This document shows, one piece after another, positions 2,898-41,919 of a stretch of 64,000 bases of DNA (the first letter of the stretch is position 1; each line of letters starts with the position of its first letter). The DNA is taken from contig OX439041.1 in NCBI GenBank assembly GCA_949317995.1, positions 45,555,269 through 45,619,268 on the forward strand, in the 5' to 3' direction. Below the pieces are notes generated by a model. It had not been told where the DNA came from and ran no database searches. It saw only the letters and a list, made by a program, of their open reading frames with translations. The DNA is from Acholoe squamosa (taxonomy: Eukaryota > Annelida > Polychaeta > Phyllodocida > Polynoidae). The position numbers and the translations under genes are program-made.

Positions 2898-2911
2898 CCA
2901 CCCCCCACTAG
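2898..2911 (-). other. Polypurine tract of the Ty3/gypsy element
   Basis: The minus strand reads TAGTGGGGGGTGG immediately before the 3' LTR start. This is the position where plus-strand DNA synthesis is primed in LTR elements. Confidence 0.85.
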
Positions 2912-3492
2912 ACTGAAACGAGGTCTCTGAAAATTCAGAGATCCCGGATCAGTCTAAACAATTAGATAATAATATGAACTACTGGATCCGTCGACATAGT
3001 CGACAGAAACAGTAGAGGAATATATAGAAATATAGTTTCTACTGTACTGTAGAAAAAAAATTATTATCACAGTTAAATTATAAGGCGTTGCTCCATCCAA
3101 CGTAGGAGACCAGTGTCGAAACACTGCTTCACGACCTGCTCCTGGTCGATCCGAGGGAGGCACGACCGGGTATGGCAACCGGGGTCGTGTCGTTTCCTCC
3201 CTGTCTCGTTGAGAAGCTCCTTCCAGCGTAGGAAGCCCATCGATAGCGTACAATACTACTATGATGGTCCTTCGACCGTGAGGCCGAGGATGTGTGGCAC
3301 CACCGGGCCCTAAGACCAGGGTGGCGTCGGATCCACACAGCTTCGCAGGGAGGTCCGGGGACAGGAAAGGTACCCCCACTCGTGGAGGGTACACCGTCGT
3401 CCGGGAACGAGTTCCCGGGGGTTCCGTGCTGACATCGAGACTCTGTTCGATGTCAGCGATCCAGGCTGACGAGGAGGAGCAGTAGTTTCATA
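2912..3492 (-). other. 3' untranslated region between ORF3 and the polypurine tract
   Basis: This 0.58-kb stretch lies downstream of ORF3. Short open frames occur in several phases, but none has a recognisable motif, and the GC-rich composition of the element explains them. I see no gene in it. Confidence 0.6.
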
Positions 3493-6498: not shown

Positions 6499-7414
6499 CA
6501 GGGAGAGAAGACTCCGGGTCTCGAACCGTTCTCAGACGGGACGAGACGTCGAAGAGGATCTTCGAGGTTTTTCGATCCGCACTCTGGCGGGTCGAAGCCT
6601 CGAAGGTGCCTTCGATGTACCTCGAACCGCACTCAGGCGGCTCGAGGGACCGAAGACTGGAGTCTCGAGAGAACACGAACCTGCGCTCACACAGGTCGTG
6701 TCCCTCGACACTAGGCAGGGGAGACCTCCTACACTCAGGTAGGGAGTCCCCAGACGGAGCGTACCAGCTGGAATAAGCTAGGCTTAGTCCAGCTTATCTG
6801 CGTCCGACTCTCACGAGAAGGGCGCAGATGTGACCTCCGTGGTGGGCGACGCGGCCTTTTATCCCTGTGGCGCACGTCTCTGATTGGAGGAAGGGGCTAC
6901 GTGACCGAGGAGGGCGAACCCTATTGGTCCACAGCGCATCACGCCATGACCAAATAAGGTACTGCTCAAAAAAAATAGAACGACTCACTCTCCCCTCACC
7001 GTCACGCTCTGCTTCTCCAGTCGCAATGTTTGCATATGCCGTTATTTCCTATGCGGTCTATGGGTTCCAACACTATTAACATGGATTAATCTGGGCACCC
7101 CCTCCTTCATCAGACTACCGGGATTAAAAAAAATGGTTCCAATATGGATCTACCCTTCGGGCAGTATCCACCAGCCTATGCTGGGAACCCGTCCTCACAG
7201 TCAATAAAATCAGAGGCTCCAAATTTCCATGTTTCCAGTGTCAGTTTGTCTCAAACTAAGAGGCAATCGTACGACTTCTCGTTGTGTAATTTTTTATTCA
7301 CCGTCGGCTTCACGTCCACAGACAGATTTACTCAAGAACGGCACCCGTTATTTTAAAGTCTCATTAAAAACACAGGTTAGTAAAGCTGCTGCTTAGTATT
7401 GTGCGAAACATCGA
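6499..7414 (-). other. Spacer between pol and ORF3
   Basis: This 916-bp non-coding stretch inside the gypsy element separates the pol stop from the ORF3 start. Its ORF3-proximal third carries repeated TCGAAG/CTCGAG words and the candidate promoter at 6855-6927. A separate ORF3 transcript, from this promoter or by splicing, would explain how a gene this far downstream is translated. Confidence 0.6.
6855..6927 (-). promoter_or_regulatory. Candidate internal promoter for ORF3 (two CCAAT boxes and a TATA box)
   Basis: On the minus strand: CCAAT at 6927-6923, a GTCACGT word, CCAAT at 6887-6883, then GATAAAAGG at ~6863-6855. A start site near 6825-6830 would give a leader of about 330 nt before the ORF3 ATG at 6498. 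Part of the arrangement (GTCACGTxGCCC followed by a TATA box and AAGGCCG) parallels the LTR promoter. Confidence 0.5.
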
Positions 7415-10400
7415 TTACTGAGTAGGGTTTAATCTAGGGCTTTTCCTGATTTTAACCTTTACTACAGGAACGAGTGTTGAGCCTCGGGGCGGGTTACTAT
7501 CACCCCCTCCTAGCCCGCCGTCCTTTGATGTGGCCGGGCCGACCGGGCTATTAACCCGTTTCCGTCGGCGTCTGCCCCCCATCACTTGTGACGGTGTGGA
7601 TGCAGGAGCCAGAGTGTTTGCTCTGGGTTTCCTTTCATCCTCGACACTCGCTGACCGTTCCTTTGATGAGCCTTGGCGCTTAAGCCTCGCTCGAGTCATA
7701 GGTCCGGACTGGAGTGACTGATCTTTCACTTCAATCGAAACGTTTCGATGTGAAGTTTGTTCAGTCGTTCGCACCTTCGAGGGGGGGTCGGGCTTCCGAC
7801 ATCCCTTCAAAGGCTGTTTAGATGTTTTCGACTTATCTCGACGGGCCGGTCGACCACGGCGCCGCTTTGATGGTTTACTGGCATCCAACACCTCCACCTC
7901 GCTCAGTTTTCGAGCTTTTTGCTGTCGTTTTCGATGACCCTGCTTAGTTTGTTCTTTAGACTGGACTTCCGGCCGCGACCTTTCGACCTCTATTTCGACC
8001 TGTCCAGAAACAGACTTAGCCCTTTTCGTAGCCTTACGAGAAGGTGAATCATCATCAAGTTGTGGTTGCAACAACTCGACAGTTTGTGATAGTTCTACGC
8101 CCAACCACCGGCGCACTCTATCAACATTGCTCTTTTGCAACCGTCCGCGGGATGATCGAAGTAATAATGTCGACTCAGAGAGGACAGAATCTACAACGAA
8201 CGGCCCATCCCAGTTGGGGGCAAGCTTCATAGCTGCCTGGGGGGTGTGGTACCTCACCACCTGTTCACCAACTGAGTATCTTCTCTGCTTTAGCCCATAG
8301 TCATACCCGACCTTCTGGCGTTCCGCAGATTTACCTAAGTTTTCCCTTACCATGCTATAACTCTCCCTCAATCGGTCACGAAGTTGTTCCACGAAGGTGA
8401 CGGAACAAGGGACTTCGAGTGGGTTCTCGATTGAGCCGAAAATCACATCCGCTGGCATGAGAATTTCTTCCCCGAATACCATCATATTTGGACTGCATCC
8501 AGTAGAACTGTGCTCAGAGCTGTTATATGCGGACACCACATATTTAGCCTGTTCATCCCAGTCGTCCATATGTTTGTCTACCAACATAGTCAGACTCTGA
8601 ATCAACGTTCTATTGAACCTTTCCACCTGACCATCACTCTGTGGTCTGTATGGATTGGTTCTCTGTTTTACAATCGTCAAATATTCACACATCTCAGAGA
8701 AGAGTCGAGACTCAAACTCTCGACCTTGGTCGGAATGCAGAAGCAACGGGACTCCAAAGGTCAAAACCCATTCGTTCACTAAGGCCTCTGCACAGGTCTC
8801 TGCCGTGTGATTTGGTAGGGGAATAGCGCGTACATACTTGGTGAAGTAATCCTGGATTACTAACATGCAAGTATTCTTGTTTGGCGTGGGTGCAAATCCC
8901 GAGATGATATCCATAGCTATCCTCCCGAATCTCACCCCGAACAACTCTTGGTGCAGAGGAGACTTACCCATGCCCTCGCCGGGCTTTACCAGGCAACAGG
9001 TAGGACAGTGTCGAACCCAACGACCTATGTCCTTTCCCATCCCGGGCCAGTAATATCTCCTTTTCACTTTTTCGAGCGTTCGTTTACGACCAAAATGTGC
9101 CGCTGTTCGGTGTCCGTGGCAAAAGGAGAGTACCTCACCCCTCAGTTGGCGTGGTACAACTACTTGAATCGTGCGCCTAGCTCGACCCGCCTCGACTTTC
9201 CAGCGACACAACAAGCCTTCACGGAAGGTTAGTAGAGGCCATTGCCCTACTAATTTCCGTACCTCGGCGCTCTCGATCGATACATCAGGCCTAGTGGGTT
9301 TAGCCCCCTTAACTAGCCATTCAGCAACTCGTTTGATGTCAGCGTCCGCTTTCTGAGCATCAATGAGTTCATTGAGAGACCAAAATGCAACACCCACCCG
9401 GCTGTCTACTAAACCACTTACAGCTGCCAAAACAGCATTATGACTGCCGCAGTCTGTGCAATCCGACCTCTGGCATAGCCGCACAGGGATACGACTAAGG
9501 CCATCGGCGTTTAGATGCTTGGCCCCACTTCGATGTTCGATCTTAGAGTTTTCGAGACCGAACTCCGAAAGGTGGGCCAGCCACCTACCCATCATTCCCT
9601 CAGCCTCTTTGAAATTTAGGAGCCATTTCAAAGACGAATGATCGGTGCGGATAGTGAAGTTACCACCATAAAGGTAGTGCCTAAACTTCCTGGTGTACAC
9701 GACAACTGCCAACAGTTCCCTTTTGGTAGTGCAGTAGTTTCGTTGTGTTTTACTTAGAGTGTTGCTGGCAAATGAGATCGGGACCTCCATTCCATCCTGC
9801 ACCTGGGATAGAACAGCCCCGATCGCTGTGTTGCTAGCGTCAGTGTCCAAGATAAAACGACCGTCGGGTGTGGGGAATCGAAGTACAGGTGTCTCCCTGA
9901 AACTTCGTTTTAACTCGACAAAAGCATGTTCGGCTTTCTCCGTCCACGCGAATGCCTCGTAACGACCTCTACTACCTTTAGGTTTTTGGATCACTAAGTC
10001 CTGCAAAGGACTCACGAGTTCTGCGAACCCCGGGATGAACTCTCGGTAGTAGGAACAAAAACCAATGAAGGATCGGATTTCCTTCACTGTAGTGGGCCTA
10101 GCCCAAGTCATTACATCGCTAATTTTCCCCGGGTTGGCTTCTATACCCTGTTCAGACACGATTCGGCCCAGGTACTCGACTGAAGTCCTAAAAAGTTGAC
10201 ATTTTTTAGGTTTCAACTTCAGTCCCCATGCCCGAATCCTGTTGAAGACTTCTGCCAGATTCGCCATTGCTTCATCCGTCGTTTTGCCGAAGACGATGAT
10301 ATCATCGAGGTAAACCAGGCAACTTTTACCTAGCAAACCTCTCAACATCTCCATCATTCGCTCGAATGTGGCGGGGGCGTTACACAAACCAAACGCCATG

Positions 10401-11908
10401 CGATCGAACTCGTAGAGCCCCCTCTGGTAGGAAAAAGCGGTTTTCTCGACGTCGTCGGGATTCATCCCGATCTGCCAATATCCAGATTGGAGATCGAGAC
10501 AACTAAACCACTTGTTTCCTCCTAGGGCATCCAAGGATTCGTCGATGCGCGGGAGGGGGTAAGCATTTTTCTTAGTCACTCCATTCAGACATCGATAATC
10601 GACGCAGAATCTCATGGTCCCATCCTTCTTCGTCACCATCTGGACGGGACTGGACCAGGGACTAGTACTTGGCCTAACCACCCCCGTATCCAACATCTCC
10701 TTAAGTTGTTCATCCGCCGCAGCCTTCTTGCTGAGCGGAATCCTTCTATAAGGGACTCGGATAGGTTGTGCGTCACCCGTGTCGATGTTATGCAGACATC
10801 GATCGGTGCGCCCTAACGGCTCATCTGGGGATTTAAAGACATCCACATGCTTACGTAGTAAGGCGGACAGCTTCAGTCTTTCCTCTGGCTGGGTCAGGTG
10901 GGTGTCGCCATACATGTCTAACAGCCAGGTAGGGAGCTCCCCCGTGTGGGTGCTCGCGATTTCTGCCGTCTCGATGTCTGCAGCTTCTTGCTCGAGACGC
11001 ATCATCACGGATCCTACCTCCGGTGACGAGAGTTCACCGTTTCTGTCAGCATACTGTATAGTACCGACCACCTGGCCTTTCTCCAGGACAATGTCTCGAT
11101 TCAGTGGATTACAGACGGGAAACACTGTTCGACGAACATTGCTGACAAGGGCAGCCTCACCAACCAACCCAAAACATCTCAGAGTGTTCAGGTCGGGTTC
11201 GACTATGCCCTGTCGGTCTCTTTCCAGACCTTCGGATTTTACCAAGACATCGCACTGATGTCTGGCAGGTATCCTAGTGGTCTGTGCTACTGAGGCTATC
11301 GATGACACTCTCTTCAGTTTACACTGATGGTGCTCTTCTACCGGCTCGGTCATGACCAATTGACCCGTCCTTGGGTTCAGGATCATACCGTATAATGCCG
11401 CGAAGTCGAGCCCCAGAATGCCATCGTCAGCCACATCGGCCACTATTGGGCTAAACACATAGTGGGTCGATGCGACCTTAAGAGGTAGAACCAATCGACC
11501 ATAGGTCCGCATTTCGGCTCCAGACGCAGTGCACGCCGTTATTCCCTCGTAGAGATTATCTGACGGCACCACTAACGTTTTCGCGAGTTCTCGAGAGACA
11601 ATGGTGTGGCTGGCACCAGTATCTATCAGGAAGTCCAGAGAACGCCCTCGAATCTCTGCAGACAGGTACCATCGTTTCCCCGACAAGGGGGCGGTTCCTG
11701 CTAGCATTCTCAACCCTACGTCAGTACTCAGATCGATCCCCCTCCTCTTCAGAAAAGAGAGACAGGGATCATCTGAGGGAAGCTCTGTTGCGCAGACTCT
11801 GGCCAGCTGCCGCATCAGGGCTTCTCTCCCGGCGTCGACTTTCACTTTCGATCCAGTCGAACCCTCGACCTCGGAGTTCGGGCTGCCAGCGCCCTGTTCC
11901 TTGGCCAT
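7415..11908 (-). CDS. pol: Ty3/gypsy Pol: protease, reverse transcriptase, RNase H, integrase
   Basis: The 1497-residue frame is counted from its first Met. It stays open upstream across the gag stop to 12124, so it is probably expressed as a Gag-Pol fusion by -1 frameshifting. An aspartic protease DTGAS lies at residues 96-100. The RT has its YLDD catalytic box at ~532-535. RNase H begins near 687 (DTDAS). The integrase has an HHCC zinc finger (~930-970) and D, D, E at about 1000, 1058 and 1092. After residue ~1270 the tail is very basic and contains a KRRRGRPARR block that resembles an AT-hook. All key residues are present, so the enzyme set looks intact. Confidence 0.95.
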   Translation of the reverse strand: MAKEQGAGSPNSEVEGSTGSKVKVDAGREALMRQLARVCATELPSDDPCLSFLKRRGIDLSTDVGLRMLAGTAPLSGKRWYLSAEIRGRSLDFLIDTGASHTIVSRELAKTLVVPSDNLYEGITACTASGAEMRTYGRLVLPLKVASTHYVFSPIVADVADDGILGLDFAALYGMILNPRTGQLVMTEPVEEHHQCKLKRVSSIASVAQTTRIPARHQCDVLVKSEGLERDRQGIVEPDLNTLRCFGLVGEAALVSNVRRTVFPVCNPLNRDIVLEKGQVVGTIQYADRNGELSSPEVGSVMMRLEQEAADIETAEIASTHTGELPTWLLDMYGDTHLTQPEERLKLSALLRKHVDVFKSPDEPLGRTDRCLHNIDTGDAQPIRVPYRRIPLSKKAAADEQLKEMLDTGVVRPSTSPWSSPVQMVTKKDGTMRFCVDYRCLNGVTKKNAYPLPRIDESLDALGGNKWFSCLDLQSGYWQIGMNPDDVEKTAFSYQRGLYEFDRMAFGLCNAPATFERMMEMLRGLLGKSCLVYLDDIIVFGKTTDEAMANLAEVFNRIRAWGLKLKPKKCQLFRTSVEYLGRIVSEQGIEANPGKISDVMTWARPTTVKEIRSFIGFCSYYREFIPGFAELVSPLQDLVIQKPKGSRGRYEAFAWTEKAEHAFVELKRSFRETPVLRFPTPDGRFILDTDASNTAIGAVLSQVQDGMEVPISFASNTLSKTQRNYCTTKRELLAVVVYTRKFRHYLYGGNFTIRTDHSSLKWLLNFKEAEGMMGRWLAHLSEFGLENSKIEHRSGAKHLNADGLSRIPVRLCQRSDCTDCGSHNAVLAAVSGLVDSRVGVAFWSLNELIDAQKADADIKRVAEWLVKGAKPTRPDVSIESAEVRKLVGQWPLLTFREGLLCRWKVEAGRARRTIQVVVPRQLRGEVLSFCHGHRTAAHFGRKRTLEKVKRRYYWPGMGKDIGRWVRHCPTCCLVKPGEGMGKSPLHQELFGVRFGRIAMDIISGFAPTPNKNTCMLVIQDYFTKYVRAIPLPNHTAETCAEALVNEWVLTFGVPLLLHSDQGREFESRLFSEMCEYLTIVKQRTNPYRPQSDGQVERFNRTLIQSLTMLVDKHMDDWDEQAKYVVSAYNSSEHSSTGCSPNMMVFGEEILMPADVIFGSIENPLEVPCSVTFVEQLRDRLRESYSMVRENLGKSAERQKVGYDYGLKQRRYSVGEQVVRYHTPQAAMKLAPNWDGPFVVDSVLSESTLLLRSSRGRLQKSNVDRVRRWLGVELSQTVELLQPQLDDDSPSRKATKRAKSVSGQVEIEVERSRPEVQSKEQTKQGHRKRQQKARKLSEVEVLDASKPSKRRRGRPARRDKSKTSKQPLKGCRKPDPPSKVRTTEQTSHRNVSIEVKDQSLQSGPMTRARLKRQGSSKERSASVEDERKPRANTLAPASTPSQVMGGRRRRKRVNSPVGPATSKDGGLGGGDSNPPRGSTLVPVVKVKIRKSPRLNPTQ

Positions 11909-12108
11909 TGAGGCTTTTTCTACACCGACATCTTCGGAACCCGACCGGTGATCAACCGGTGCCGCTGTGGTAAAGGGCTGGGACGGCCCTACCGGGACCT
12001 TACCTAGTTCCCTCGAATCTACTGTCGTCTGATCAGGAGTGCCAGAGGTGCTGATACCTTGGCTTTTCGATGGTCGGGCAGCTCGATTGCCACGTCGAGC
12101 CGCCCGCC

Positions 12109-12124
12109 TCAGTTTTCCGCCGCG
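12109..12124 (-). promoter_or_regulatory. gag/pol overlap with candidate -1 frameshift site
   Basis: The pol frame opens after a stop at 12127-12125 and gag stops at 12111-12109, so any shift must occur in this 16-nt window. It contains GGAAAAC (12118-12112), read in gag as G GAA AAC directly before TGA. The last codon can re-pair as AAA after slipping back. It is not a canonical X XXY YYZ heptamer. Confidence 0.55.
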
Positions 12125-14877
12125 TCAGGTGGTAGTCCTTTAATCGGCTCGGGGCAAGTTCGTGCGAAATGCCCCTGCTTCTTGCAGTTCCAACACTTGG
12201 CGTCGGACGGAGGGGTACTCGGCTTCTCTGAGCTAGTACCAGGGACATCCCCTCCCTCGATAACCCTGAGTAAATTCTTCAATTGACTCAGCGAGAAGGT
12301 CTGCTCCTGTACCTTGGGTTTGGAGGCCTTGTTTGGTGTTTTCGATTTACCAGCGGATTTCTGACCTTTCTTAGTCTTACTCCCCGCCCCGGGCTTCGAG
12401 TATGAGGAGACTTCGCCCTGTCCTTCCTTAACCAAAGCGGCGTCGGCCAACGCCGACAATGCATTTGTCGAGGTAGGATTCACCAACTTCGGCAGGAGTT
12501 GTCGTTTCCGCAACAACTCGTCTGCCAAGTCCATGAGATCCTTTAGGGACATGTAAGTACGCCACTCCCGAAGAACGTCTTGTTGTAAATCAACGTCATA
12601 CAATCCTCCTATGAACAACTGGTTGACTTTGGTTATGAGCCATTCAACCGAGAAGTCCACACCTGGATAGGCATCGCCGGCAAGACGTCTCAAAGCAAAG
12701 CCATAGGCTCTAATGCTTTCGTTCTTGCCTTGGCGTCTCTTCTCCATTGTAACAATGGGGTCTTGAAGGCTAGAAGTCATGGCTTCCGTTACCATGTCGA
12801 CCAGTCCCTCCAAAGTCCCATCTCCATGCTCCTCCCATAGCCACACAGTATCAGCTGCAGGGCCATTCTGGAGTAACATGAGGAGTTGAGCTAATGCCAT
12901 ACTCGAGGTCCATACATTTACTCGACGGACGTGATTGAATCCGTGGTACCAACGGAGCCAATCGTCCTTCCATGTAAATGGAGGGCACTCGACTGACCTA
13001 GTTCGGGCTGGTTCATGCCCGATAGAGGTATTTTCAAACATTCTGCTTGATCTCCTGACCTGATCAAGGGCGAATGTTGTGCCTCTTCTAGGTATTTGAT
13101 GGTCCATCCCCATGTTTCTCATAGTCGTGTCTGCACGACTGTGATTCATCCCCCAGGGATTACCAGAATCGGCATCACTCAACCGCGAAGCCTCGAATCT
13201 GATATCCCTATATTTGGGTGGATCAACATGTTGTTGGGTCGTGATAGGGGTCGAGAACTGCCCGATCACTTCACTTAGACCATCGGTGCGCGGCATTGAA
13301 GGAACTGGTTGGGTCCGGCGCGACCTCGAATCCACTTTCGAGATGTCGTCGATTGCTCCCACCATTCTATCTATCTCCGCCTGCTGTTTTGAACGTTCCG
13401 CCTGTCTTAATTCCGACACTAGGAATTCCAGGCGGGCATGTTCGGGTTTCGAGAGATCTCGTTGCTCGCTGATGGCAAAGAGTTGCTTGGCCTCCTTCAT
13501 GGCATGGTCAAGCCACTCTCTGTAGTCAGGGTTTTCGACTAGATCCCCTTGAGTAGCAACTCTAGTAGTGCTGCATTCACTACTTTGTTGCTTATCTCGA
13601 AGTCTAGCGGTACGCAATTTCGATTCCGTCTGCTCCTTCAGACGTTCTTCGAGTGCGAGTTCATCACGAACTTCTTTATTCACCCTGGCTTCATCAGCCT
13701 TTCTGCGAGACAATATCTCTCGTCGGAGCTCATCGATTTCACCACGTATGGCTCCCAAAGTGTCCGAATCCTTCTGATCTTTCAGTGACTGGGCTACTAG
13801 GGATTCAGACTTCAAGGAATTAAGCTCGGCCTCATGCCTCGCTTTTTGTTCCATTAAGACCTGATATTCCGCCATTTTGTTTGCGTGTTCGATTCGTTCC
13901 TCACAGCGACGACGCATTTCTGCCTCGTCCCTGGCTCGAGCATCCTCGTCAGCTTGCATCTGACAGAGTAACGACTCCCGTTCCTGACGTAGCTGTTTCA
14001 CCTGCTTTTCATAAGCCGTTAGGTGCTCAGCTACTTCTTCAGTATGCTCGGCTGATTGTTGGTTCAATTTATGCCACAACTCTTGCAGTTGTTCCTCCAA
14101 CATAGTCTTTTCTACTTCTTGTAGTTTCAACTTATGTTTAAGGGACGTCTGCTCGTGCTGGGCATCCCGAAAATCGTTTCGAGCTCTCTCGACACATTCT
14201 CGGCGGCTTGTAGCAAGGCGATCGATCTTTGCTTTTAGCGATTGACAATCCATTGCTGTCAACCGACTACGCTCGATCTCTGACTTCGTTGCAAGCAAGG
14301 ACTCCTTTTCGCTAGAGAGCTGCTTGACCTTCTCCTGAAGATCAGTAAGTTCTCTATTTGCGATCTGAGTCTTGTTCGAAGCCTCTAACGCCTGCTGCCT
14401 AAGCTGTTCCAATTTCAGCTCTATTTCTGTACTCTTCTCCTGAGCTTTCATGGTGTTACTTGCGAGAGCATCCAACTGTTGGCGACCCTGGCGCAGTTGG
14501 CGTTGCTGCTCTTGTAGCAACTCCTCGTTGAGCCCCCTGCCACTGTCAATACTTCCTTGTATCGACACGGGCGAGGGACCCTCGAAGGACCAACTGCCAA
14601 GGCCCATTGGAGTTCCCACGGGCGAGGCTGATTTTTCTACATAGGACAAACTCTGTGTCCTCAAGAAGTTCTCAGCCGCCGGAGAGAGTTGAGTCGATAC
14701 TCGCCAATTGAGTAGCCGGCTCCTTTGATACAGGCCCAACGGGTCAGACGATGGGCCTAATATCAGGGTGTGGTTCAAACCACCACCAATTAGTGGATCA
14801 TTCATATCCACTAACGGGCCTGTAGTCACTTGATGTTGATGATTGGGGTCATCACCTTCATCCAAGTGACCCTGCAT
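12109..14877 (-). CDS. gag: Ty3/gypsy Gag with a long coiled coil and CCHC knuckle
   Basis: This 922-aa structural protein begins 136 nt after the 5' LTR. Residues ~130-480 form an extended Gln/Glu/Arg/Leu-rich coiled coil, far longer than in usual Ty3/gypsy Gag (often 300-450 aa in total). Residues ~640-800 contain the capsid-like region (WKDDWLRWYHGF, then WLWEEHGDGT). A single zinc knuckle CWNCKKQGHFARTC lies near residue 894, ahead of the stop at 12111-12109. The knuckle binds element RNA. The pol frame overlaps the last 16 nt in the -1 phase. No internal breaks are visible. Confidence 0.93.
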   Translation of the reverse strand: MQGHLDEGDDPNHQHQVTTGPLVDMNDPLIGGGLNHTLILGPSSDPLGLYQRSRLLNWRVSTQLSPAAENFLRTQSLSYVEKSASPVGTPMGLGSWSFEGPSPVSIQGSIDSGRGLNEELLQEQQRQLRQGRQQLDALASNTMKAQEKSTEIELKLEQLRQQALEASNKTQIANRELTDLQEKVKQLSSEKESLLATKSEIERSRLTAMDCQSLKAKIDRLATSRRECVERARNDFRDAQHEQTSLKHKLKLQEVEKTMLEEQLQELWHKLNQQSAEHTEEVAEHLTAYEKQVKQLRQERESLLCQMQADEDARARDEAEMRRRCEERIEHANKMAEYQVLMEQKARHEAELNSLKSESLVAQSLKDQKDSDTLGAIRGEIDELRREILSRRKADEARVNKEVRDELALEERLKEQTESKLRTARLRDKQQSSECSTTRVATQGDLVENPDYREWLDHAMKEAKQLFAISEQRDLSKPEHARLEFLVSELRQAERSKQQAEIDRMVGAIDDISKVDSRSRRTQPVPSMPRTDGLSEVIGQFSTPITTQQHVDPPKYRDIRFEASRLSDADSGNPWGMNHSRADTTMRNMGMDHQIPRRGTTFALDQVRRSSRMFENTSIGHEPARTRSVECPPFTWKDDWLRWYHGFNHVRRVNVWTSSMALAQLLMLLQNGPAADTVWLWEEHGDGTLEGLVDMVTEAMTSSLQDPIVTMEKRRQGKNESIRAYGFALRRLAGDAYPGVDFSVEWLITKVNQLFIGGLYDVDLQQDVLREWRTYMSLKDLMDLADELLRKRQLLPKLVNPTSTNALSALADAALVKEGQGEVSSYSKPGAGSKTKKGQKSAGKSKTPNKASKPKVQEQTFSLSQLKNLLRVIEGGDVPGTSSEKPSTPPSDAKCWNCKKQGHFARTCPEPIKGLPPDAAEN

Positions 14878-14995
14878 GTCGAACTTAAGCTCGCAGTACC
14901 TATGCGGACTAAAGTTAACAACTGGTCACGGCACCAGTGTAGCGTTCTACCCCTCGATGTTATATCGAATCTTTCGATAAACAACGAAGAACAAC

Positions 14996-15013
14996 TATTC
15001 AGGTTCCAGTTAA
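14996..15013 (-). other. Candidate primer-binding site of the Ty3/gypsy element
   Basis: Going inward from the 5' LTR end the minus strand reads TTAAC then TGGAACCTGAATAG. The TGG matches a tRNA CCA end. I cannot name the primer tRNA. Confidence 0.5.
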
Positions 15014-15405
15014 AACTTTATTGTCTAATAACACATAGGCATCAGCCGTTCTCGATCACAGTTACAGGTGGCAAAGTTTGAACTCTATTGCAGGTTCGAC
15101 ACTAGGCCTTCTAGTGTCTAGAGTTAATATTCCACATGAACCCCCTCTGTGCAGTAGCACAGAGGAGTATTAGAATATGGTAGCCGGGCAGCCGCCGACC
15201 ATTGCTCACAATGGTCAGTCGGGGCTGGACTGACCCTGAGGAAGGCCGTACAACGGCCTTATATACACCGGAGTCGAGGGCCACGTGACCAAGTGGTGAC
15301 GTAGCGCTGGACTCCAGCGCCCCCAGGCGTCGGGTAATAGAGGTGCTCTCGACGTCGCCCACGAGGACCACGAAGGTACCTCGAAGACGACGCGGGACCA
15401 CCACA
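15014..15405 (-). repeat. 5' LTR of the Ty3/gypsy element (392 bp)
   Basis: Same boundaries and length as the 3' LTR. The TATATAAG box lies at 15265-15258 and the CACGTG E-box just upstream on the minus strand. The outer flank (15406 onward) shares no 4-6-bp direct repeat with the flank at 2505. Confidence 0.92.
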
Positions 15406-16809
15406 ACAGTAAAAGGCATGACCGGGTACTCCCTCGCAGGCGTACCTGTTACCGTGTTAATTGTGTTAATCTTGTCTGTCCTTATCGCAGAAACACCTGT
15501 TGCTGAAGGATAGGACGCCGATAGGGCACCACAGATAAGGTAATAATAGTACAGGTAGTATGTATACGTGCACATTATCTGAATGTTTTCTGTGTCAATT
15601 ACGATAGACCTCCGCATAATACCGCAAGGAAAATTATGGCAGAGCATCTGTTTGATAGTCATCACGATGATAGTGATTTTCTAATAAACTAATGAGTGAT
15701 TTACTTTTTGCGATATCTCGCATAGGTCCCTTCTTATAAAGTTAGTTGGATTCATCTAAAGATTAGAGGGAAGAAAAAAAAACACGCTCCGGGAGTTGGC
15801 CCAAAATGTCCGGCGAAAGAGTGTAAAATTAGAACATGAAATAACTTATGTAGACCACAAACGCTACTGGATATTGTAGCGGTCGTGTGTCCTATATATG
15901 TATCTACCTCTAGATTTTCAGAGAAAAGATTCTGAAGATGACTAATGGAACATGCATCATAGGAGAGGACGCCTCATGGTGAAGCTACCTATGGTCATTT
16001 AACATGTTCCTAACAGGGTAGACAAATTAATTCGGTTTTATAGAGTGACGCGGGAGGGCCTTTCATAATGATTTAAACTGTACCATTTCCATGCATCATC
16101 TTTTTTTTTGCATAGCGTAATTGATTATATGACCATAATACCCATAATCCACTAGCCTCCATAACCAGATTTTATAGAGACTTTGTGTGACTCATGTGCG
16201 TGATAGAAGCCAAGTGGGCTGTGGATTTAATGTAGGCATAGTTAGTTACACAATACAAATATGCAACTAGAACACTAGAACAGGGATGTGATTGTATGGA
16301 ATAACATTAATTCACAAGTGTTCCCCCATCATTATGCATATGGCTTACACCCATAGTCCACTATGCCTCTATCGCCAGATTTTATATGTGATCCATCCTT
16401 ACAAAATGAGAATTATGTGTATGTCATCATAGCCTCCTGGATATGGATAGCATTCTGATATAAATGGCGATATCTGGTAATGACAACAAATGGATTGTTT
16501 CAGTCTGCCATGGTAACCCAAGGTGAAGTTTTCTTAGCTTTGTTTGAATAGGTAACTCCAACAGCTTTCGGAAAATGTAACATATGAATTATATATCAAA
16601 ACAGCATGTTAAGAGATAATATAAAGTATATCATGGTGATAACTATGTGGTAATAATTTGTTTTCCATGAAATTCATTAGTATTGTGACCGGGGCATTTA
16701 TGAGGTATTTTCTCAGTTTGAGGTATTTTCAGCATATATACAAGTGTAATATATCAAATGAAAACTTAAATTGGTATCTTCTTTCTGAATCTGGGGCTCA
16801 GTCATATTT
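15406..16809. other. Intergenic, no gene recognised
   Basis: AT-rich sequence between the gypsy element and the next MITE. A minus-strand open frame at 15406-15665 is continuous with the LTR but has no motif. The first exon of the PhyH-like gene may lie here, but I could not identify it. Confidence 0.5.
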
Positions 16810-23724: not shown

Positions 23725-23909
23725 AAGCTACTTATATGCGCGCATATAAGTGGTGATAAATGGGCAGTAGCAGTTCCCAATGTATTACCAGATGTCACCA
23801 CTTCCATTCAGGTGTTATGTAACAGGTTCCTTCACTGGTGGCCTTTGTAGTCGGCCATATTGCCTAGCCCCAGGAAGGACCACCGGTCTCACATTGGAGA
23901 TTTTTTTTT
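23725..23909 (+). repeat. Ngaro terminal repeat A1 (185 bp)
   Basis: It starts AAGCTACTTATATGCG, contains the perfect 20-bp palindrome CTTATATGCGCGCATATAAG at 23731-23750, and ends in a T run. I see no difference from A2 at 28896-29080. Confidence 0.92.
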
Positions 23910-23926
23910 GGAAACTCCCAGTCATC

Positions 23927-25675
23927 ATGACTAAATGCGTGGCCTGTGATACTTCCTACCATGGTAACGCGGCCAAGTGCCCGAATTGTGGGGTGACCAA
24001 TCCGGGGAAACGTTATTCTCCGGAGGATTCGGAAAAATTACCTGGTTCAGTGGATTCAGCCGAGCGTGACGGGCAGGAGGCCACGGAGGCCAGGCAGAGC
24101 GACCGGCCGCCCCAGGGAAAGGACGGTCAACATGGTGAGCTTGGCAGCCTTGGGGAGGACTCTACACAAAATGATTTATTGCATCAGATTGAACTTGAAA
24201 AGGCCAGGAAATCAAAAATTGATGAAATGTGTAAACGCAAAGAGTTGGAACTAGAGTTGGCCAGCCTGCGGGCTGAAAATAACAGATCTATCCGCCAATT
24301 TAACGATGGGGTACGTGCTTGGCATGGAGCCATGGGTGCGTTCGAGGCCCAATCTTTTTCCCTTACTGCTAGTCCTATGGGTCTGGATCCCTCAGAGTTG
24401 GATGCGGTAAGGAACGAAAGTGGTGACTCGAACGCACCAGGCTTCCAAACTGGCCAATCACAAGCCAGCTCTAACATTCACTGCGGAGTCCAAAATGGCC
24501 GCCCTGTACTTCTGGAAAGCCGGCTTTCGGCCGCAAACAATGTTTTAGGGCCTAGTTCTAGTGTTATTGGACCCTCCGCAGGCCAATCCGGCCTTGAAAC
24601 CAGCTCAGGTATGTTTGATTTACCCAATTTGTGTAAAAAATTGCCTCCAGGAGAGGGAAATACCCAAGTAAACAAGTCGCTCACCCGCGATAACAAGCCA
24701 CCTTCCCGGTACAATCACCCGGTCCCCAGAGACAATCAACCTGACTATCCAGTGGGTGGAAGACATTTCCATGGTGAATTAGACAATGATTATCAGGAAT
24801 TCTTATTGTGGAAACAATGGAGAAGTGGTGGTGTAGCTCCTAAAAACAATGCTTCAGGCATTTCTAGTGGCATTGACAGTTCTAGTAGTCCTAATGCTAC
24901 TCAGGGTTTATTTCCATCCCAACCTTCCATGGGAAACACTGTTCCTCAGCTGTTCTACAAACATGGCACACCTTATTCCCCACCTGTCACACCTGTTAGT
25001 CAGACTGTCAATTGGCCTGGTGTGGGTCAATTTAGGGCACCAGATGGCAGGCTAAAGTTCCCACCTACACCTATGGTATATGGTAACCCGACTACTTCTC
25101 ATATGTATGGGGTTCCAGTCCCAACATCCCATCAGCAGCAGGCTTCATATCAGTTTGGCGTTATTCCTAACCCACAACAACAGTACCAGGCTGCAGGAAT
25201 TCTACCTAATCAACAAACCCTGTTCCAGGCTCCTGGTGTTCAGTCTGTGCAATCTCAAATTCTACAAAACCCAACAGCATGGTATCCTAACCAACAACTA
25301 CAACATCAGGCTCAAGGCGCCCCAATGGTGATATTTTCGCCGAACAATGCCAGTGGCAGTAAGTTTGTGACCTATGACATTGAACAGCACATGCCGCATG
25401 ACAAAGTAAAAAAACCCACCTTGAATGATGTTATTTCTGCTAGCATGGGTCTCTTGAATAGCATGTTGGCTAGAAACTTCCCATGTAAAAACTATGGTAA
25501 ACATGTTAAATTCCTAACTGACAAGAAAGCATTCTACAATGAGGATGCTCTCATTCAGTATGATCTTGCAATGCGTGAAAGGGGAGAATCGTTTGGTGAA
25601 CACACATTCTGCTATTTCGATCACGACATCTTCTCAAACAGTGTTGGTCTTGAGTGTTGCCGAGCACTTATGTAA
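23927..25675 (+). CDS. gag: Ngaro Gag, main frame
   Basis: The frame is open from 23780, but the first 49 codons lie in the terminal repeat, so I take the ATG at 23927 as the start (582 codons). It opens with a CVAC...CPNC zinc-ribbon-like motif (residues ~5-22), followed by a charged helix (~75-125) and a long Gln/Pro/Asn/Tyr-rich region (~300-490). The frame stops at 25675 shortly after the GEHTFCYFDHDIF block. The Cys/His knuckle expected at the end of a DIRS-order Gag lies in the next frame, ending at 25907. Either a one-base indel broke gag around 25640 or a frameshift is used. Confidence 0.75.
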   Translation: MTKCVACDTSYHGNAAKCPNCGVTNPGKRYSPEDSEKLPGSVDSAERDGQEATEARQSDRPPQGKDGQHGELGSLGEDSTQNDLLHQIELEKARKSKIDEMCKRKELELELASLRAENNRSIRQFNDGVRAWHGAMGAFEAQSFSLTASPMGLDPSELDAVRNESGDSNAPGFQTGQSQASSNIHCGVQNGRPVLLESRLSAANNVLGPSSSVIGPSAGQSGLETSSGMFDLPNLCKKLPPGEGNTQVNKSLTRDNKPPSRYNHPVPRDNQPDYPVGGRHFHGELDNDYQEFLLWKQWRSGGVAPKNNASGISSGIDSSSSPNATQGLFPSQPSMGNTVPQLFYKHGTPYSPPVTPVSQTVNWPGVGQFRAPDGRLKFPPTPMVYGNPTTSHMYGVPVPTSHQQQASYQFGVIPNPQQQYQAAGILPNQQTLFQAPGVQSVQSQILQNPTAWYPNQQLQHQAQGAPMVIFSPNNASGSKFVTYDIEQHMPHDKVKKPTLNDVISASMGLLNSMLARNFPCKNYGKHVKFLTDKKAFYNEDALIQYDLAMRERGESFGEHTFCYFDHDIFSNSVGLECCRALM

Positions 25676-25907
25676 TGTTCTTGGTATCCAGCCTTCATCA
25701 TCTCAAAGTGGTGCTGGTACTGTTGCGGGATCGAGTAGTAAGAGGAAAAAGAACAAAAAGAAAAAGTCAGATGAAATTCACTGTTGCTATGCATTTAACG
25801 GTGATAATGGTTGTAACGCCAAAGATTGCCCTCACCCACATGTATGTCGTTCTTGTGGGGGTAATCACACAAAACTAAAGTGCACTGTGAAAAAATCAAA
25901 TGATTGA
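25640..25907 (+). CDS. Ngaro Gag C-terminal part with Cys/His knuckle, in the +1 frame
   Basis: The translation VLVLSVAEHLCNVLG, then a Ser/Lys-rich segment with KKNKKKKSDE, then CCYAFNGDNGCNAKDC and HVCRSCGGNHTKLKC. This C-x-rich cluster followed by a CxxCxxxHxxxxC knuckle is the usual end of DIRS/Ngaro Gag proteins and binds nucleic acid. It has no start of its own near the motif and overlaps the end of the main gag frame, so it is the displaced tail of that gene. After its TGA at 25905-25907 the same frame stays open to 26156. Confidence 0.7.
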
Positions 25908-26004
25908 TATCAGGCCTTAGTGGATTCTGATTCAGGGGTCAGTGACTCCGAGGAGTCTGGCATAGATTGTGGAATTATAAAATCTTCCGATTCTGACAAT
26001 ACCA

Positions 26005-27882
26005 GTGAACTTGAATATAAGTTTATTATGGGATGTCAACAAATTCGTAATTCCTTGTGGTTCAAATCATGTCACTTCTTCAGATTCATTACCAAATACG
26101 GAAGACATTATATTAACTCCTACTATCTACACTTCCAGAATTGTCGATGGTGTTGAATGGTTTAGACCTTGTCCTTTGGATTGTGATTCCGTTCATGTCT
26201 TAGATGGCATGTGCCTCCAACTCAACCAACACGCCTTCTTTGATGAATGCATGGGGTTTGAGGAAGTTGATGGTAACTATGCTTATATCCTAGACGGTGT
26301 TCGTAACGGGTTCAAAATCGTTGATGTGGATTATAATGGTTCTTATTTTCAAAAAAATTACCATTCCATAATCAAAGAAGGTGTAAAATGCCAAATGGAC
26401 TATCTGGTAAGGAAGGAGTTAATTGATGGTAAAGTCAAAAGGGTTCTTAGTAGACCCCAGTGTGTACATTCACTGGGGGCTATTTTAAAACCAGATGGCA
26501 GCTTAAGACCCATAACAGATTGCAGCCGTGGTGATCCCGATGATAATCTTAAAAGTATCAATGACTTTATGTACACAACTTGCCAACCGTTTCATTATAC
26601 TCAAGTTGATAGTGTTACTGATGTCATACATGAGGGCTCGTTTTTATGTGTATTGGACATCCAATCTGCTTATCGTAGTGTGGCTGTTCATCCGGACGAT
26701 CGTTCCAAGCAAGGTTTTGTGTGGAGTCTGGATGGTGCACCAGAATATTTTGAAGATCAAGCCTTATCGTTTGGTCTTAGATGTGCACCATTTATCTTTA
26801 CTCAACTAACCGAGTTTGTCATCCGGTGTATGAATCGTAGAGGTATTTTCAATGTTTTCGGTTACCTTGATGACTTTGTCATTGTGGCTGACAGCTACGA
26901 GGAGTGTGCGAGGCGTCAGGCGATATTGGTAGATCTGCTCCGACGTCTCGGTTTCCATATTGCATGGAAAAAAATCTTAACCCCTGCTACCAAAGTCCAG
27001 TATTTGGGTCTGGTAATTGACACAGTGAAAATGGAAATCAGCTTACCCCCACAAAAGTTAGACAACTTATTAGTACTGATCGACAAGTTCTTGGGTAAAA
27101 CTGTTGCTACCAAAAAAGAATTACAAGAACTGTGTGGTCATTTGGCACACGCTAGTAGAGTTATTCGGGGAGGCAGAACATTTTCACGTAGAGTCATTAA
27201 CCTACTCAAATACATGGCCGACAGTGTCACAGTGGTCAAACTACCTGATTGGTTTATGGATGACATTCGCTGGTGGAAAAGGTTCAGTTATGTATTCAAT
27301 GGTTCTGCCAAAATCCTACGTACCTTTGATTATCATCCTATTGTAGACACTGACTCATCACTAACTGGTTTTGGCTCATGTTATAATGGTGATTGGTTAG
27401 TAGGTGCATGGAAATTACCTGCCTACAATCAGTTGTATAATCGCTTTCCATTACATCATACTGTTGAACCCCCTTGTGAATATGATGAGACAGCTGACAT
27501 TAACCTACTGGAAGTCTGGCCAGTGGTTGCTGCAGCGCAACGTTGGGGAAATGATTGGTCGGATACAAAAGTTGTAGTCAGAACCGACAATACCCAAGTC
27601 CAACGCATGATAAATACTGGCAGATCGCGGAGTGTTCACTGTATGTGGTGGATAAGAGAATTATTTTGGTTATCAGTTGTACATAATTTTCATATTGTTG
27701 CTACTCGCGTTAAATCTAAAGACAATATTGTTCCTGACTTTTTGTCACGCTGTACGGATAAAAGGTGTGCAAAAGGATTGCCTTCATTTCTGATAAATGA
27801 CTTCTGCTGCAGGGGATGTCTTGACTCACAAACTACGGAACTACCAGTCACAGTGGATGGCTGGAGCCACGGAGCGTACTAG
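26005..27882 (+). CDS. Ngaro reverse transcriptase and RNase H
   Basis: A 625-aa frame. The RT core runs from about residue 150: LKPDGSLRPITDCS, then VLDIQSAYRSV with the first catalytic Asp, and GYLDDFVIVAD (~287) with the catalytic Asp pair. RNase H follows, with IVDTDSSLTGFG (~445), NLLEVWPVVAA and VVRTDNTQVQRM (~530). No methyltransferase follows, unlike DIRS1. It overlaps the recombinase ORF by 86 nt in another frame. The true N-terminus is uncertain because the preceding acidic segment (from 25920) is in a different frame. Confidence 0.93.
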   Translation: MNLNISLLWDVNKFVIPCGSNHVTSSDSLPNTEDIILTPTIYTSRIVDGVEWFRPCPLDCDSVHVLDGMCLQLNQHAFFDECMGFEEVDGNYAYILDGVRNGFKIVDVDYNGSYFQKNYHSIIKEGVKCQMDYLVRKELIDGKVKRVLSRPQCVHSLGAILKPDGSLRPITDCSRGDPDDNLKSINDFMYTTCQPFHYTQVDSVTDVIHEGSFLCVLDIQSAYRSVAVHPDDRSKQGFVWSLDGAPEYFEDQALSFGLRCAPFIFTQLTEFVIRCMNRRGIFNVFGYLDDFVIVADSYEECARRQAILVDLLRRLGFHIAWKKILTPATKVQYLGLVIDTVKMEISLPPQKLDNLLVLIDKFLGKTVATKKELQELCGHLAHASRVIRGGRTFSRRVINLLKYMADSVTVVKLPDWFMDDIRWWKRFSYVFNGSAKILRTFDYHPIVDTDSSLTGFGSCYNGDWLVGAWKLPAYNQLYNRFPLHHTVEPPCEYDETADINLLEVWPVVAAAQRWGNDWSDTKVVVRTDNTQVQRMINTGRSRSVHCMWWIRELFWLSVVHNFHIVATRVKSKDNIVPDFLSRCTDKRCAKGLPSFLINDFCCRGCLDSQTTELPVTVDGWSHGAY

Positions 27883-28756
27883 GAAGAGCCAATGGAACTC
27901 TTATTTGGAATTTTGCATATTATATGATGTGCTTGTTCCATTCCCCGCTAGTATAGAAGTTGTGTTGTTATATGTTACACACTTGGCTGAGAGACTGCGC
28001 TACAGCTCTATTAAACAGTACCTAGGAGGACTTTGGGTGTTGCACAAGGTCCTAGGTTATTCACATGTCAACCCTAATACATTTGAACTCTACATCACTA
28101 TGAGAGGTATTCGAAGGACCCTAGGTGATCATGTGGACCAGGCGCGACCAGCGTCAGTGCAGGACTTAAAGCGTATTTATAAACTATTGGATATGTCATG
28201 TTCTGAAGATGTGGCATTTTGGATCACTGTTATCATGTGCTTCAGGGGCTTATTACGTAAGTCCAATGTGGTTGAACAAGGACTGGCAGTCTGCTTGTCA
28301 GATTTGACCTGGGAAGTCTGGGGGGTCTCCGTCAGACTTCGCCATACAAAGACTATTTCATTTAAGGAGCGGGTCTTGTTCATACCCTTCACATTCATCA
28401 ATGACTCTATCTTCTGCCTTCATTATTACCTGACCTTGCTGTTATCTATGGTGAACTACCCATCCAGTGACTCACAAGTAGTGTCGTACATGAAAAATGG
28501 CCAATGGTGTCGTGGCAGTTACTCATGGTACTTGGGCAAATTGCATAAGTTGTGTGCCAAGTCAGGCATCGATAAGTTGTCTTCACACTCGTTACGAAGA
28601 GGAGGTGCATCGGCCTTGGCAGATGCAGGTTTCAGTCTATTGGACATCAAAAACATTGGTGATTGGAAATCATTGAGTGTGTTGCATTATTTGACAAAAT
28701 CCAAACAAGCTCGTATCGATCTTGATCGGCGTATGGTTAGCGCCTTATTCGTGTAA
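27797..28756 (+). CDS. Ngaro tyrosine recombinase
   Basis: A 319-aa site-specific recombinase that integrates the circular DNA copy, replacing a DDE integrase. The N-terminal helical core-binding region (RTRKSQWNSYLEFC) is followed by the catalytic domain. The first Arg is in FRGLLRKSN (~150), a Lys in RHTKTI, the H-x-x-R motif in SSHSLRRGG (~263), a Trp in GDWKS, and the nucleophile Tyr in HYLTKS (~297). All expected catalytic positions are filled, so the enzyme looks intact. The likely recombination target is the 20-bp palindrome in the A repeats. Confidence 0.92.
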   Translation: MTSAAGDVLTHKLRNYQSQWMAGATERTRKSQWNSYLEFCILYDVLVPFPASIEVVLLYVTHLAERLRYSSIKQYLGGLWVLHKVLGYSHVNPNTFELYITMRGIRRTLGDHVDQARPASVQDLKRIYKLLDMSCSEDVAFWITVIMCFRGLLRKSNVVEQGLAVCLSDLTWEVWGVSVRLRHTKTISFKERVLFIPFTFINDSIFCLHYYLTLLLSMVNYPSSDSQVVSYMKNGQWCRGSYSWYLGKLHKLCAKSGIDKLSSHSLRRGGASALADAGFSLLDIKNIGDWKSLSVLHYLTKSKQARIDLDRRMVSALFV

Positions 28757-40742: not shown

Positions 40743-40925
40743 AAATGGATAAGGGTGGTGGCAGCTGAGATTTTGGTTCAACATCACTTAATAGTAACAC
40801 CTATCATCACCCCACACTGAAAATATAATACTCTGTAGTGAGGACTTTAGTTCATCTTTTTGATGATGACTGGGGAGAGTACCCCATGATCTTTTAAGCA
40901 GGGTGATCATGTATGACTATACTTG

Positions 40926-41174
40926 TGTAGAGGTCGGCGGAAAACGTCTTGGAGAAACCGGGAGTCGAAACCGGGACCCTCCAACCTGCAGGCGGAAGCT
41001 CTACCGCTGAGTTACTTCCCCGTCTGACATTCTCTACCTTCCACCTACATCTGGATCGGTATAATACACAAGGGGGGCAGCTTATACCGGATGACCAGCC
41101 CCTGAGGGCTGGTGCAACCGGAACGGGGCAGATGGCCTACCGCCATGGACTTACAGCCAGAGCTGGCCCCTACA
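40926..41174 (-). repeat. 3' LTR of the TRIM-like element (249 bp)
   Basis: It differs from the other LTR at about four positions, all within the tRNA-like part. TGTAG...CTACA ends. Confidence 0.88.
40950..41021 (-). tRNA. tRNA-Cys(GCA)-like sequence in the 3' LTR
   Basis: Same 72-nt layout as the copy at 41691-41762. The anticodon stem pairs better here (4 of 5), while the D stem has one mismatch and the T stem/B box one changed base. More likely a retrotransposon part than a working tRNA gene. Confidence 0.6.
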
Positions 41175-41337
41175 CTCCTCCCAACCAGCTTCAACCATGG
41201 CCAACCAGCACCAAGCATTCCTCCCAACCAGATCGATTGGGCTTTATCAAGCAGTGTGAGGCACTCCTGACTTCCCAGTTGACCTACCAGTACACAGTAC
41301 TGCCAGGGTCGAAGCGTATCTGTATTATACCGTTCCA

Positions 41338-41460
41338 GGCACCTACACCTGGATTGGTATGACACACACGTAGGGGGGAGCTACCACCGGATGCCTGCCC
41401 CTGGGGGCTGGGATCTCCAGAAACGGGGCTGCTGGCCTTACGGCAGAGCTGGCCCCTACA
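41338..41460 (-). repeat. Decayed partial LTR inside the TRIM-like element
   Basis: It resembles the right half of the 249-bp LTRs (CACCTACACCTGGATTGGTA ... GAGCTGGCCCCTACA) and is also followed by CTCCTCCCTACCAG, the polypurine tract complement. This suggests an older element or an internal duplication. Confidence 0.7.
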
Positions 41461-41651
41461 CTCCTCCCTACCAGATTCAATATAGGGTTCAGTACCCTAT
41501 AGGTACCAGATACCCGGGACTAGTACTGAGTCGCATACCGGCCACCTGTTTCCAAGTCTCCCCAGTACTAGCAAATTGAATCGTCATTTGTGTCATACCA
41601 GCACAGGTACCGAGTTCTTGTAGTCCCCCCTCACACGGGTCAGGACCAACT

Positions 41652-41665
41652 CGGTTTCTCCACCA
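41652..41665 (-). other. Primer-binding site complementary to the element's own tRNA-like 3' end
   Basis: The minus strand TGGTGGAGAAACCG begins one base after the 5' LTR. It is the reverse complement of CGGTTTCTCCA plus CCA, and the tRNA-like sequence in each LTR ends CGGTTTCTCCA. Confidence 0.8.
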
Positions 41666-41666
41666 G

Positions 41667-41915
41667 TGTAGAGGTCGGCGGAAAACGTCTTGGAGAAACC
41701 GGGAGTCGAACCCGGGACCCTCAAACCTGCAGGCGGAAGCTCTACCACTGAGCTACTTCCCCGTCTGACATTCTCTACCTTCCACCTACATCTGGATCGG
41801 TATAATACACAAGGGGGGCAGCTTATACCGGATGACCAGCCCCTGAGGGCTGGTGCAACCGGAACGGGGCAGATGGCCTACCGCCATGGACTTACAGCCA
41901 GAGCTGGCCCCTACA
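41667..41915 (-). repeat. 5' LTR of the TRIM-like element (249 bp)
   Basis: In minus orientation this is the upstream LTR. The tRNA-like block ends 24 bp before the LTR end and 25 bp before the primer site. Confidence 0.88.
41691..41762 (-). tRNA. tRNA-Cys(GCA)-like sequence in the 5' LTR
   Basis: 72 nt folding by eye into a cloverleaf: acceptor GGGGAAG/TTTCTCC (7 pairs, two G-U), D stem GCTC/GAGC, anticodon loop CTGCAGG with GCA, T stem CCGGG/CCCGG, loop TTCGACT, discriminator A. The A box is TAGCTCAGTGG and the B box GGTTCGACTCC is a perfect consensus. The anticodon stem is weak (2 pairs plus a G-U). It could serve as an internal Pol III promoter. A working tRNA-Cys is unlikely because of the stem and its place in a repeat. 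Confidence 0.75.
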
Positions 41916-41919
41916 CTTG

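Follow-up and report, generated by a model that had tools for sequence, protein, structure and literature searches.

A Helenus-type TRIM of Acholoe squamosa with a primer binding site complementary to the tRNA-like block in its own LTRs

Results

Structure of the element

The window, that is, the whole stretch of 64,000 nucleotides analysed here (Acholoe squamosa, contig OX439041.1), contains on its minus strand a short LTR element with the following features.

40926-41915, minus strand: complete Helenus-type non-autonomous LTR element (TRIM), 990 bp (from sequence, LTR comparison and target site duplication, TSD)
40922-40925, no strand: left TSD, CTTG, identical to the right TSD at 41916-41919
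41916-41919, no strand: right TSD, CTTG (from sequence); CAAG in element sense
41667-41915, minus strand: 5' LTR, 249 bp, TGTAG..CTACA
40926-41174, minus strand: 3' LTR, 249 bp, with 4 mismatches to the 5' LTR, all within the tRNA-like block
41691-41762, minus strand: tRNA-like block in the 5' LTR, 72 nt, with an Ala-type acceptor (G3:U70, A73) and the 3' end CGGTTTCTCCA (ARAGORN; Rfam RF00005, 47.7 bits)
40950-41021, minus strand: tRNA-like block in the 3' LTR (Rfam RF00005, 37.4 bits)
41745-41755, minus strand: A-box-like TAGCTCAGTGG in the 5' LTR (from sequence, compared with the box consensus)
41702-41712, minus strand: B-box-like GGTTCGACTCC in the 5' LTR (likewise)
41682-41685, minus strand: TTTT, 5 bases 3' of the tRNA-like block, a possible leaky Pol III terminator (from sequence)
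41652-41665, minus strand (sense 41665 to 41652): primer binding site (PBS), TGGTGGAGAAACCG, complementary to the tRNA-like 3' end plus CCA over 14 nt
41609-41655, minus strand: predicted stem right after the PBS, CCGAG with CTCGG (single-sequence fold), found in the A and B types and absent in the D type
41340-41460, minus strand: diverged partial LTR (U3) copy within the internal region, 72% identical to LTR positions 1-133
41175-41182, minus strand: purine tract (PPT), GGGAGGAG, adjoining the 3' LTR

Read in element sense, the order is TSD (CAAG), 5' LTR (41915 to 41667), one base, PBS, internal region, PPT, 3' LTR (41174 to 40926) and TSD. In each LTR the tRNA-like block has the same sense as the element and is followed by TTTT and then by the LTR end; this TTTT was present in 100 of 100 junctions among the matches listed in the junction search described below. 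The PBS lies one base off the 5' LTR and 25 bp off the tRNA-like block. The longest stop-to-stop frame within the element is 143 aa. The parts described in the first-pass annotation, namely, the 249-bp LTRs, the CTTG duplication, the purine tract, the 72-nt tRNA-like blocks and the 14-nt primer site 25 bp away, are all present.

Identity of the tRNA-like block

The tRNA family of Rfam (RF00005) exceeds its gathering score of 29 in both LTRs and is the only family at gathering threshold within the window. ARAGORN called positions 41762-41691 tRNA-Cys(gca), as in the first-pass annotation; yet the anticodon varies among LTR types (gca, gct, cga and tgc), whereas A73 and the acceptor pair G3:U70, which we take to be the alanine identity pair, are kept across the blocks compared, the search rule for this comparison having admitted only blocks with GGGG and TCCA ends. 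In family D the block is identified as tRNA-Ala(tgc), and six LTR blocks of this family score 63.9-72.5 bits; for comparison, two host tRNA-Ala genes score 68.4 and 70.4 bits, and a host AGC gene and its variant 49.4 and 43.1 bits. When eight blocks were aligned with three host tRNA-Ala types, 53-63 of 73-75 aligned positions were equal. The differing anticodon and the constant Ala-type acceptor rule out a tRNA-Cys, and to judge from its sequence the block is derived from tRNA-Ala. As possible functional tRNA genes, the TTT types combine an Ala-type acceptor with a gca, gct or cga anticodon, so that isotype and anticodon disagree; in family D (tgc) they agree. RNA folding, earlier proposed as a check on the block, gave no support, since the fold energy is unremarkable (z -0.23) and uninformative as tRNA evidence; this evidence comes instead from the covariance model and the relatives of the block.

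The acceptor and T arm half of a tRNA serves 3' processing and CCA addition, not decoding. Among seven LTR types (21 pairs), the median identity was 0.94 for the acceptor and T arm, 0.89 for the D part and 0.77 for the anticodon and variable part, as well as 0.61 for U3, 0.80 for U5 and 0.94 for the PBS, the last value not being clean because the seven representatives include four rearranged copies in which the PBS region is itself tRNA-like. The apparent conservation of the acceptor and T arm fits a need for 3' maturation rather than for decoding.

Copies in the genome

At least 42 near-full-length matches, the window copy included, were found in the genome, the others having 98-99% identity and some being neighbouring units of one array. 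The 42 loci fetched include two that overlap places already fetched, leaving 40 distinct loci, 31 of which (again with the window copy) have exact 4-bp TSDs. The TSDs and termini establish integration by an LTR-type integrase. Among the nine loci without an exact TSD, one has flanks with 3 of 4 bases matching and eight are preceded by gaggag or gaggat; because these are PPT ends, the eight loci lie within longer arrays. Some genomic copies are indeed LTR-internal-LTR arrays with a period of 741 bp, and a second LTR type forms a tandem array within one locus (L041). Thus, the genome search proposed in the first-pass annotation recovered many copies with paired LTRs and 4-bp TSDs, and the structure is not due to chance. 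A tRNA-derived SINE, with a single 5' tRNA head, no LTRs, a 3' tail and a variable TSD, is ruled out by the paired LTRs, the fixed 4-bp TSD, the PBS and the PPT, which also dispose of the plain tandem SINE that had been named as the refuting case.

Among 38 copies with two LTRs, the median number of substitutions between the LTRs is one, and 14 of the 38 have none (gaps ignored); the small median difference indicates recent activity. The tRNA-like block, 72 of 249 bp, holds 20 of the 46 differences (p 0.03), a slight excess over the 38 pairs to which the window copy itself contributes 4 of the 20.

Complementarity of the PBS and the block

The PBS pairs with the CCA-tailed end of its own block over 14 contiguous nt. 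Its first three bases, TGG, pair only with CCA, which is not encoded after the block. There are three block states, with the 3' ends CGGTTTCTCCA, CGGTGTCTCCA and CGGTATCTCCA, and the PBS of each state matches the blocks of the other states over 9 nt; the third state, TAT/ATA, occurs at few loci. The junction pattern CTCGGNNNCTCCACCAN{20,28}TGGAGNNNCCG had 1291 matches in the genome and none in the control. Among the 100 matches listed, which are the first places, on C1 and C2, 81 are TTT/AAA, 15 are TGT/ACA and the remaining four, each with a mismatch, show one each of four other combinations. Position 67 is complementary in 98 of these 100 junctions (Fisher p 1.5e-17, computed as if loci were independent, which they are not). 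Of their 39 distinct U5 spacers, 31 occur with T/T alone, 6 with G/G alone and 1 with the mixed T/G alone (locus L135), and 1 has T/T together with a C/T locus.

Under a looser rule (CTACA-N-TGG), the fetched loci gave 64 distinct junctions, 45 of which could be parsed; 38 of the 45 match over all seven acceptor bases, five have one mismatch, one has two and one has six. A search for A or C at position 67 found seven loci, all with A, and the PBS has the matching T in three (L158, L159 and L160) and not in four. The match of L158 is not independent, because this locus is palindromic; L159 and L160 are ordinary, the latter with one further PBS change. The pair 6:67 is T6:A67 in L159 and L160, A6:T67 in family A and T6.G67 in family D, the PBS of which has the ACA state. 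At position 66, ten loci do not have T and none of the ten has the matching PBS base; thus, there is no covariation at this position. The 13 matches without T at position 68 are one element locus, which does not match, and 12 places of an unrelated repeat. Since reversed-pattern controls gave 14 versus 7 matches (position 67) and 16 versus 13 (position 68), a match at these positions carries weight only where it can be read as an LTR junction. TGGTGG and some other bases were constant in the search patterns, so that elements with unrelated PBSs fall outside the sample.

In ordinary elements, PBS nucleotide 15 is A where the block would call for G. The predicted stem after the PBS may fix this nucleotide against the primer; this would account for the end of the match at 14 nt. 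The covariation as a whole amounts to two or three state changes with shared ancestry.

Host tRNA-Ala genes

A tRNA-Ala pattern matches 214 places in the genome, 16 of which were read; a single tandem array on C12 holds most of the 100 places listed. The 3' ends of these 16 are GGGTTCTCCA (AGC), CGGCATCTCCA (TGC) and CGGCATCTCCA or CGGCGTCTCCA (CGC). The PBS matches the three common host tRNA-Ala types over 9-10 nt, versus 14 nt for its own block. The tRNA-Ala-AGC array on C12 is large (51451334-51477176), with units a few hundred bp apart, and contains three genes with an altered 3' end (L099-L101).

A search for tRNA-Ala-like genes ending in CGGTTTCTCC gave 16 matches, namely, 13 element LTRs and these three tRNA-Ala-AGC variants, which are identical in sequence, lie in the tandem array and have the full 14-nt 3' end CGGTTTCTCCA of the TTT state. 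The corresponding pattern search for TGT and TAT ends gave seven matches, all of one TGT sequence, and no TAT; six of the seven form three pairs 498-499 bp apart, and the two that were read (L167) are family D LTRs. A further 1820 places in the genome match the T arm plus CCCGGTTTCTCCA+B, and 50 places have another T-stem base, 34 of which were read and all of these have an element-type U5 next. A host gene may be hidden among the element copies, tRNA-Ala being the isotype surveyed. An ordinary host tRNA-Cys with exactly the same acceptor arm had been named as the finding that would make a self-encoded primer unnecessary; for one of the three states, the 3' end is shared by the three variant tRNA-Ala-AGC genes.

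Rearranged copies at the primer site

The block is followed directly by CCA at 26 places (none in the control), of which 25 were read, the other being C4:36099668. At 24 of the 25, one base and then a reverse-complement LTR end come next. The other arm extends beyond the tRNA 5' end into the LTR in 17 loci (palindromes) and stops inside the block in seven; the remaining locus is odd (L154), and the tRNA 5' end itself is the stopping point in none of the 25. Because they extend beyond this end, the 17 would not be produced from a mature tRNA; they would fit priming by a longer element RNA with its 3' end at the block. In the odd locus (C11:32427064-32427304) the block is followed by CCACCA and then A-TGTAATGG, which is explained equally by a CCACCA tail copied into DNA or by slippage.

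Three of the seven loci in which the tRNA-like part stops inside the block lie in elements with exact TSDs; here LTR-N-TGG is followed by tRNA-like sequence in reverse complement. In L170 (TSD ATAG), 49 nt of reverse-complement block are followed by internal sequence, and in L172 (TSD AACA), 23 nt are followed by U5 and a normal PBS. The third, L175/L176 (C11:9.19 Mb, TSD CTGT), has 35 nt of reverse-complement block, then approximately 1.2 kb of Gypsy pol, an LTR that starts at LTR position 34, and finally PBS, internal region and LTR. A fourth locus, L171, resembles L170, and its flanks, CCAG and CCTG, agree in 3 of 4 bases. L170 and L171 are of different LTR types and have extended PBSs; the block in their 5' LTRs has the same change, TTTATCCA for TTTCTCCA. 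In L135 (C1:15587700-15588900), reverse-complement internal sequence has taken the place of the LTR block and is joined at the PBS-like 3' end.

Reverse-complement block sequence at the PBS is what copying of a self-encoded primer would be expected to leave. These scars are supporting rather than decisive, because strand switching at short inverted homology explains palindromes too. Plus-strand copying of an unmodified tRNA primer is known to run on, according to a review (PMC13191261).

Gypsy and other retroelements

The chimera L175/L176, a TSD-flanked TRIM with a Gypsy pol fragment, is probably a fossil of template switching between TRIM and Gypsy RNAs. It suggests copying of the two RNAs within the same particle, in agreement with a Gypsy helper. 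When the PBS of the TRIM was sought next to LTR ends that are not ACA, 27 places matched (2 in the reversed control), and 20 of them were read as 298-bp stretches; no autonomous element was recognised in these 20 of 27 places, which are copies of the element with altered or truncated LTRs or chance matches. One of the 20 (L128) reads like Gypsy protease coding sequence.

The window also contains a Gypsy-type LTR element (2506-15408, minus strand) with long open frames for protease, reverse transcriptase, RNase H, integrase and a CCHC knuckle. Its LTR copies are 99.2% identical over 395 bp, and its PBS, TGGTGCCGTGACC near 14936, presumably fits tRNA-His and differs from the PBS of the TRIM. A DIRS-like retroelement lies at 23771-28756 (plus strand), with a reverse transcriptase frame and an overlapping tyrosine-recombinase frame (Pfam RVT_1 and Phage_integrase).

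Discussion

Relation to known elements

Reverse transcription of retroviruses and LTR retroelements is generally primed by a tRNA taken from the host; in a few fungal elements, the element's own mRNA serves as the primer. In the Tf1 type, it is the 5' end of the element mRNA that primes. In mitochondrial retroplasmids of the Mauriceville type, reverse transcription is tied to an element-encoded 3' tRNA-like end with CCA; these plasmids differ from the present element in having no LTRs, no integration and another reverse transcriptase. Tf1-type elements, named as self-priming LTR retrotransposons (PMC6934838), supply their own primer, as would the present element, for which the proposed primer is a tRNA-like 3' end with CCA.

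The first-pass annotation knew of no described animal family with this layout, but one has already been named Helenus (TRIMp3; Kojima 2024, PMC10886601). These animal TRIMs are named by the presence of a tRNA-derived block in each LTR, and because the element has such blocks it is a Helenus member. It shares with Helenus, as characterised in that report, the TRIM form, the block in each LTR, the PBS and PPT, the 4-bp TSD, conserved A and B boxes and an animal host. The reported property of a PBS for host tRNA is not found: the present PBS matches the element's own block and co-varies with it, whereas Kojima's families are described without such complementarity. According to section 3.6 of the report, there is no complementarity between block and PBS in Helenus, so the block takes no part in priming (PMC10886601). 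The host primers given there for bivalves are Lys, His, Ile, Pro, Glu and Ser; bivalve molluscs are among the hosts, one family forms tandem arrays, and mobilisation by Gypsy is inferred for animal Helenus (PMC10886601). In the open literature we found no published case of a PBS matching the tRNA block of its own LTR beyond the denial in that section (PMC10886601). What sets the element apart from the described Helenus families is a PBS that is complementary to its own LTR block and co-varies with it; the LTR layout itself was already known.

Other TRIMs can be compared by description. Cassandra and Ajax also have a Pol III-type small-RNA block in TRIM LTRs, here derived from 5S rRNA, and Cassandra is transcribed from its 5S block according to Kojima (PMC10886601); however, a 5S rRNA block would not serve as a tRNA primer, and the window element has no 5S block. 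The biv-TRIM elements of bivalves likewise are TRIMs with tandem arrays and solo terminal repeats, but are described with TDRs of 202-218 bp, an internal domain of 77-80 bp and no unambiguous PBS (PMC6934838).

A possible self-encoded primer

We consider it probable, with some reserve, that the element is a Helenus-type TRIM with a Gypsy-type helper in which the LTR block acts both as Pol III promoter and as source of the element's own primer. The narrower proposal is that the element encodes its own primer for reverse transcription, a tRNA-like RNA from the LTR that would be matured and CCA-tailed by the cell, with the PBS kept complementary and no particular host tRNA needed; here we lean only slightly towards acceptance. 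It is preferred because PBS and block covary, the sampled host tRNA-Ala genes match less well, and rearranged copies carry reverse-complement block sequence at the PBS. The suggestion of the first-pass annotation that the element may encode its own primer thus gains from the covariation, the poorer fit of 16 host tRNA-Ala genes and the rearranged copies, and loses from the three variant host genes that match one state. The alternative offered with it, capture of the primer tRNA when reverse transcription continued past the primer site, does not account for the LTR block, which has sense orientation and lies 25 bp within the LTR; rare derived copies do seem to show tRNA-like sequence copied past the PBS.

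In such a cycle, the tRNA-Ala-derived block would be an internal Pol III promoter with transcription starting at the block, and readthrough of the leaky TTTT would yield element RNA. An RNA ending at the block 3' end could be a short tRNA-like transcript, or it could arise by cleavage of a longer element RNA at this point. Cleavage would occur after A73, and CCA would be added by the cell. This self-encoded 3' end would then anneal to the element's own PBS and prime reverse transcription, and the enzymes of an autonomous, probably Gypsy, element would move the TRIM. The complementarity of the PBS is possibly maintained by copying of the primer into it, which can take place in each cycle. We infer the transcription, processing, CCA addition, priming and Gypsy helper of this scheme from genomic sequence. 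Against self-priming, a primer copied for 18 nt should have rewritten PBS nucleotide 15, where the mismatch persists, and the predicted fold of the 162-nt region lacks a full cloverleaf. The main doubts concern the small number of independent co-changes, the selective search patterns and hairpin conversion.

One possible explanation without a self-encoded primer is that the element is an ordinary Helenus primed by a host tRNA-Ala isodecoder, the block being a Pol III promoter descended from tRNA-Ala and the resemblance of the PBS being due to shared ancestry. The block is Ala-like, with the 53-63 of 73-75 positions equal to host tRNA-Ala noted above, three variant tRNA-Ala-AGC genes end exactly in CGGTTTCTCCA, and the host comparison covers 16 of the 214 tRNA-Ala pattern places plus these variants. 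Host-tRNA primers are also what Kojima names for hymenopteran, vertebrate and bivalve families (PMC10886601). We nevertheless hold this explanation to be unlikely: the bases at which the PBS differs from the common host tRNA-Ala ends are those at which its own block differs from them, no host gene was found for the TGT and TAT ends (the seven matches being one sequence, with the two read being family D LTRs), and each of the three states would require a host primer of its own, fitted to the respective LTR variant.

Two further explanations concern the complementarity itself. If gene conversion or template switching between the two short inverted sequences, 25 bp apart, corrected one by the other as in a hairpin, the match could be kept without function. 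Template switching does happen there, given the block joined to a reverse-complement LTR end at 24 of 25 CCA-ended loci, and the LTR block of L135 was replaced in such a manner; however, conversion should also make PBS nucleotide 15 match, and it leaves unexplained the TGG before the match, the standard spacing of PBS and LTR and the poorer fit of the sampled host tRNA-Ala, which makes this account quite unlikely in our judgement. Pairing of U5 with the PBS occurs in many retroelements. The 3' strand of the block may pair with the PBS in cis in the element RNA, hiding the PBS or shaping the packaging region while another molecule primes, and the covariation is equally expected of such a helix. 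In the single fold made, the PBS does pair with U5, but the helix with the block is absent from this predicted fold of the 162-nt region (a single sequence). A cis helix would also leave the PBS bases TGG, the complement of CCA, without partners, and no better host primer was found except the three variants; a cis hairpin as the whole explanation thus appears improbable.

If the element does supply its own primer, this would show a new way in which primer choice can evolve. The three PBS/block variants in one genome would predict three matching primer/cDNA junctions. Furthermore, it would run counter to the published view that the Helenus tRNA block plays no priming role, at least for this host.
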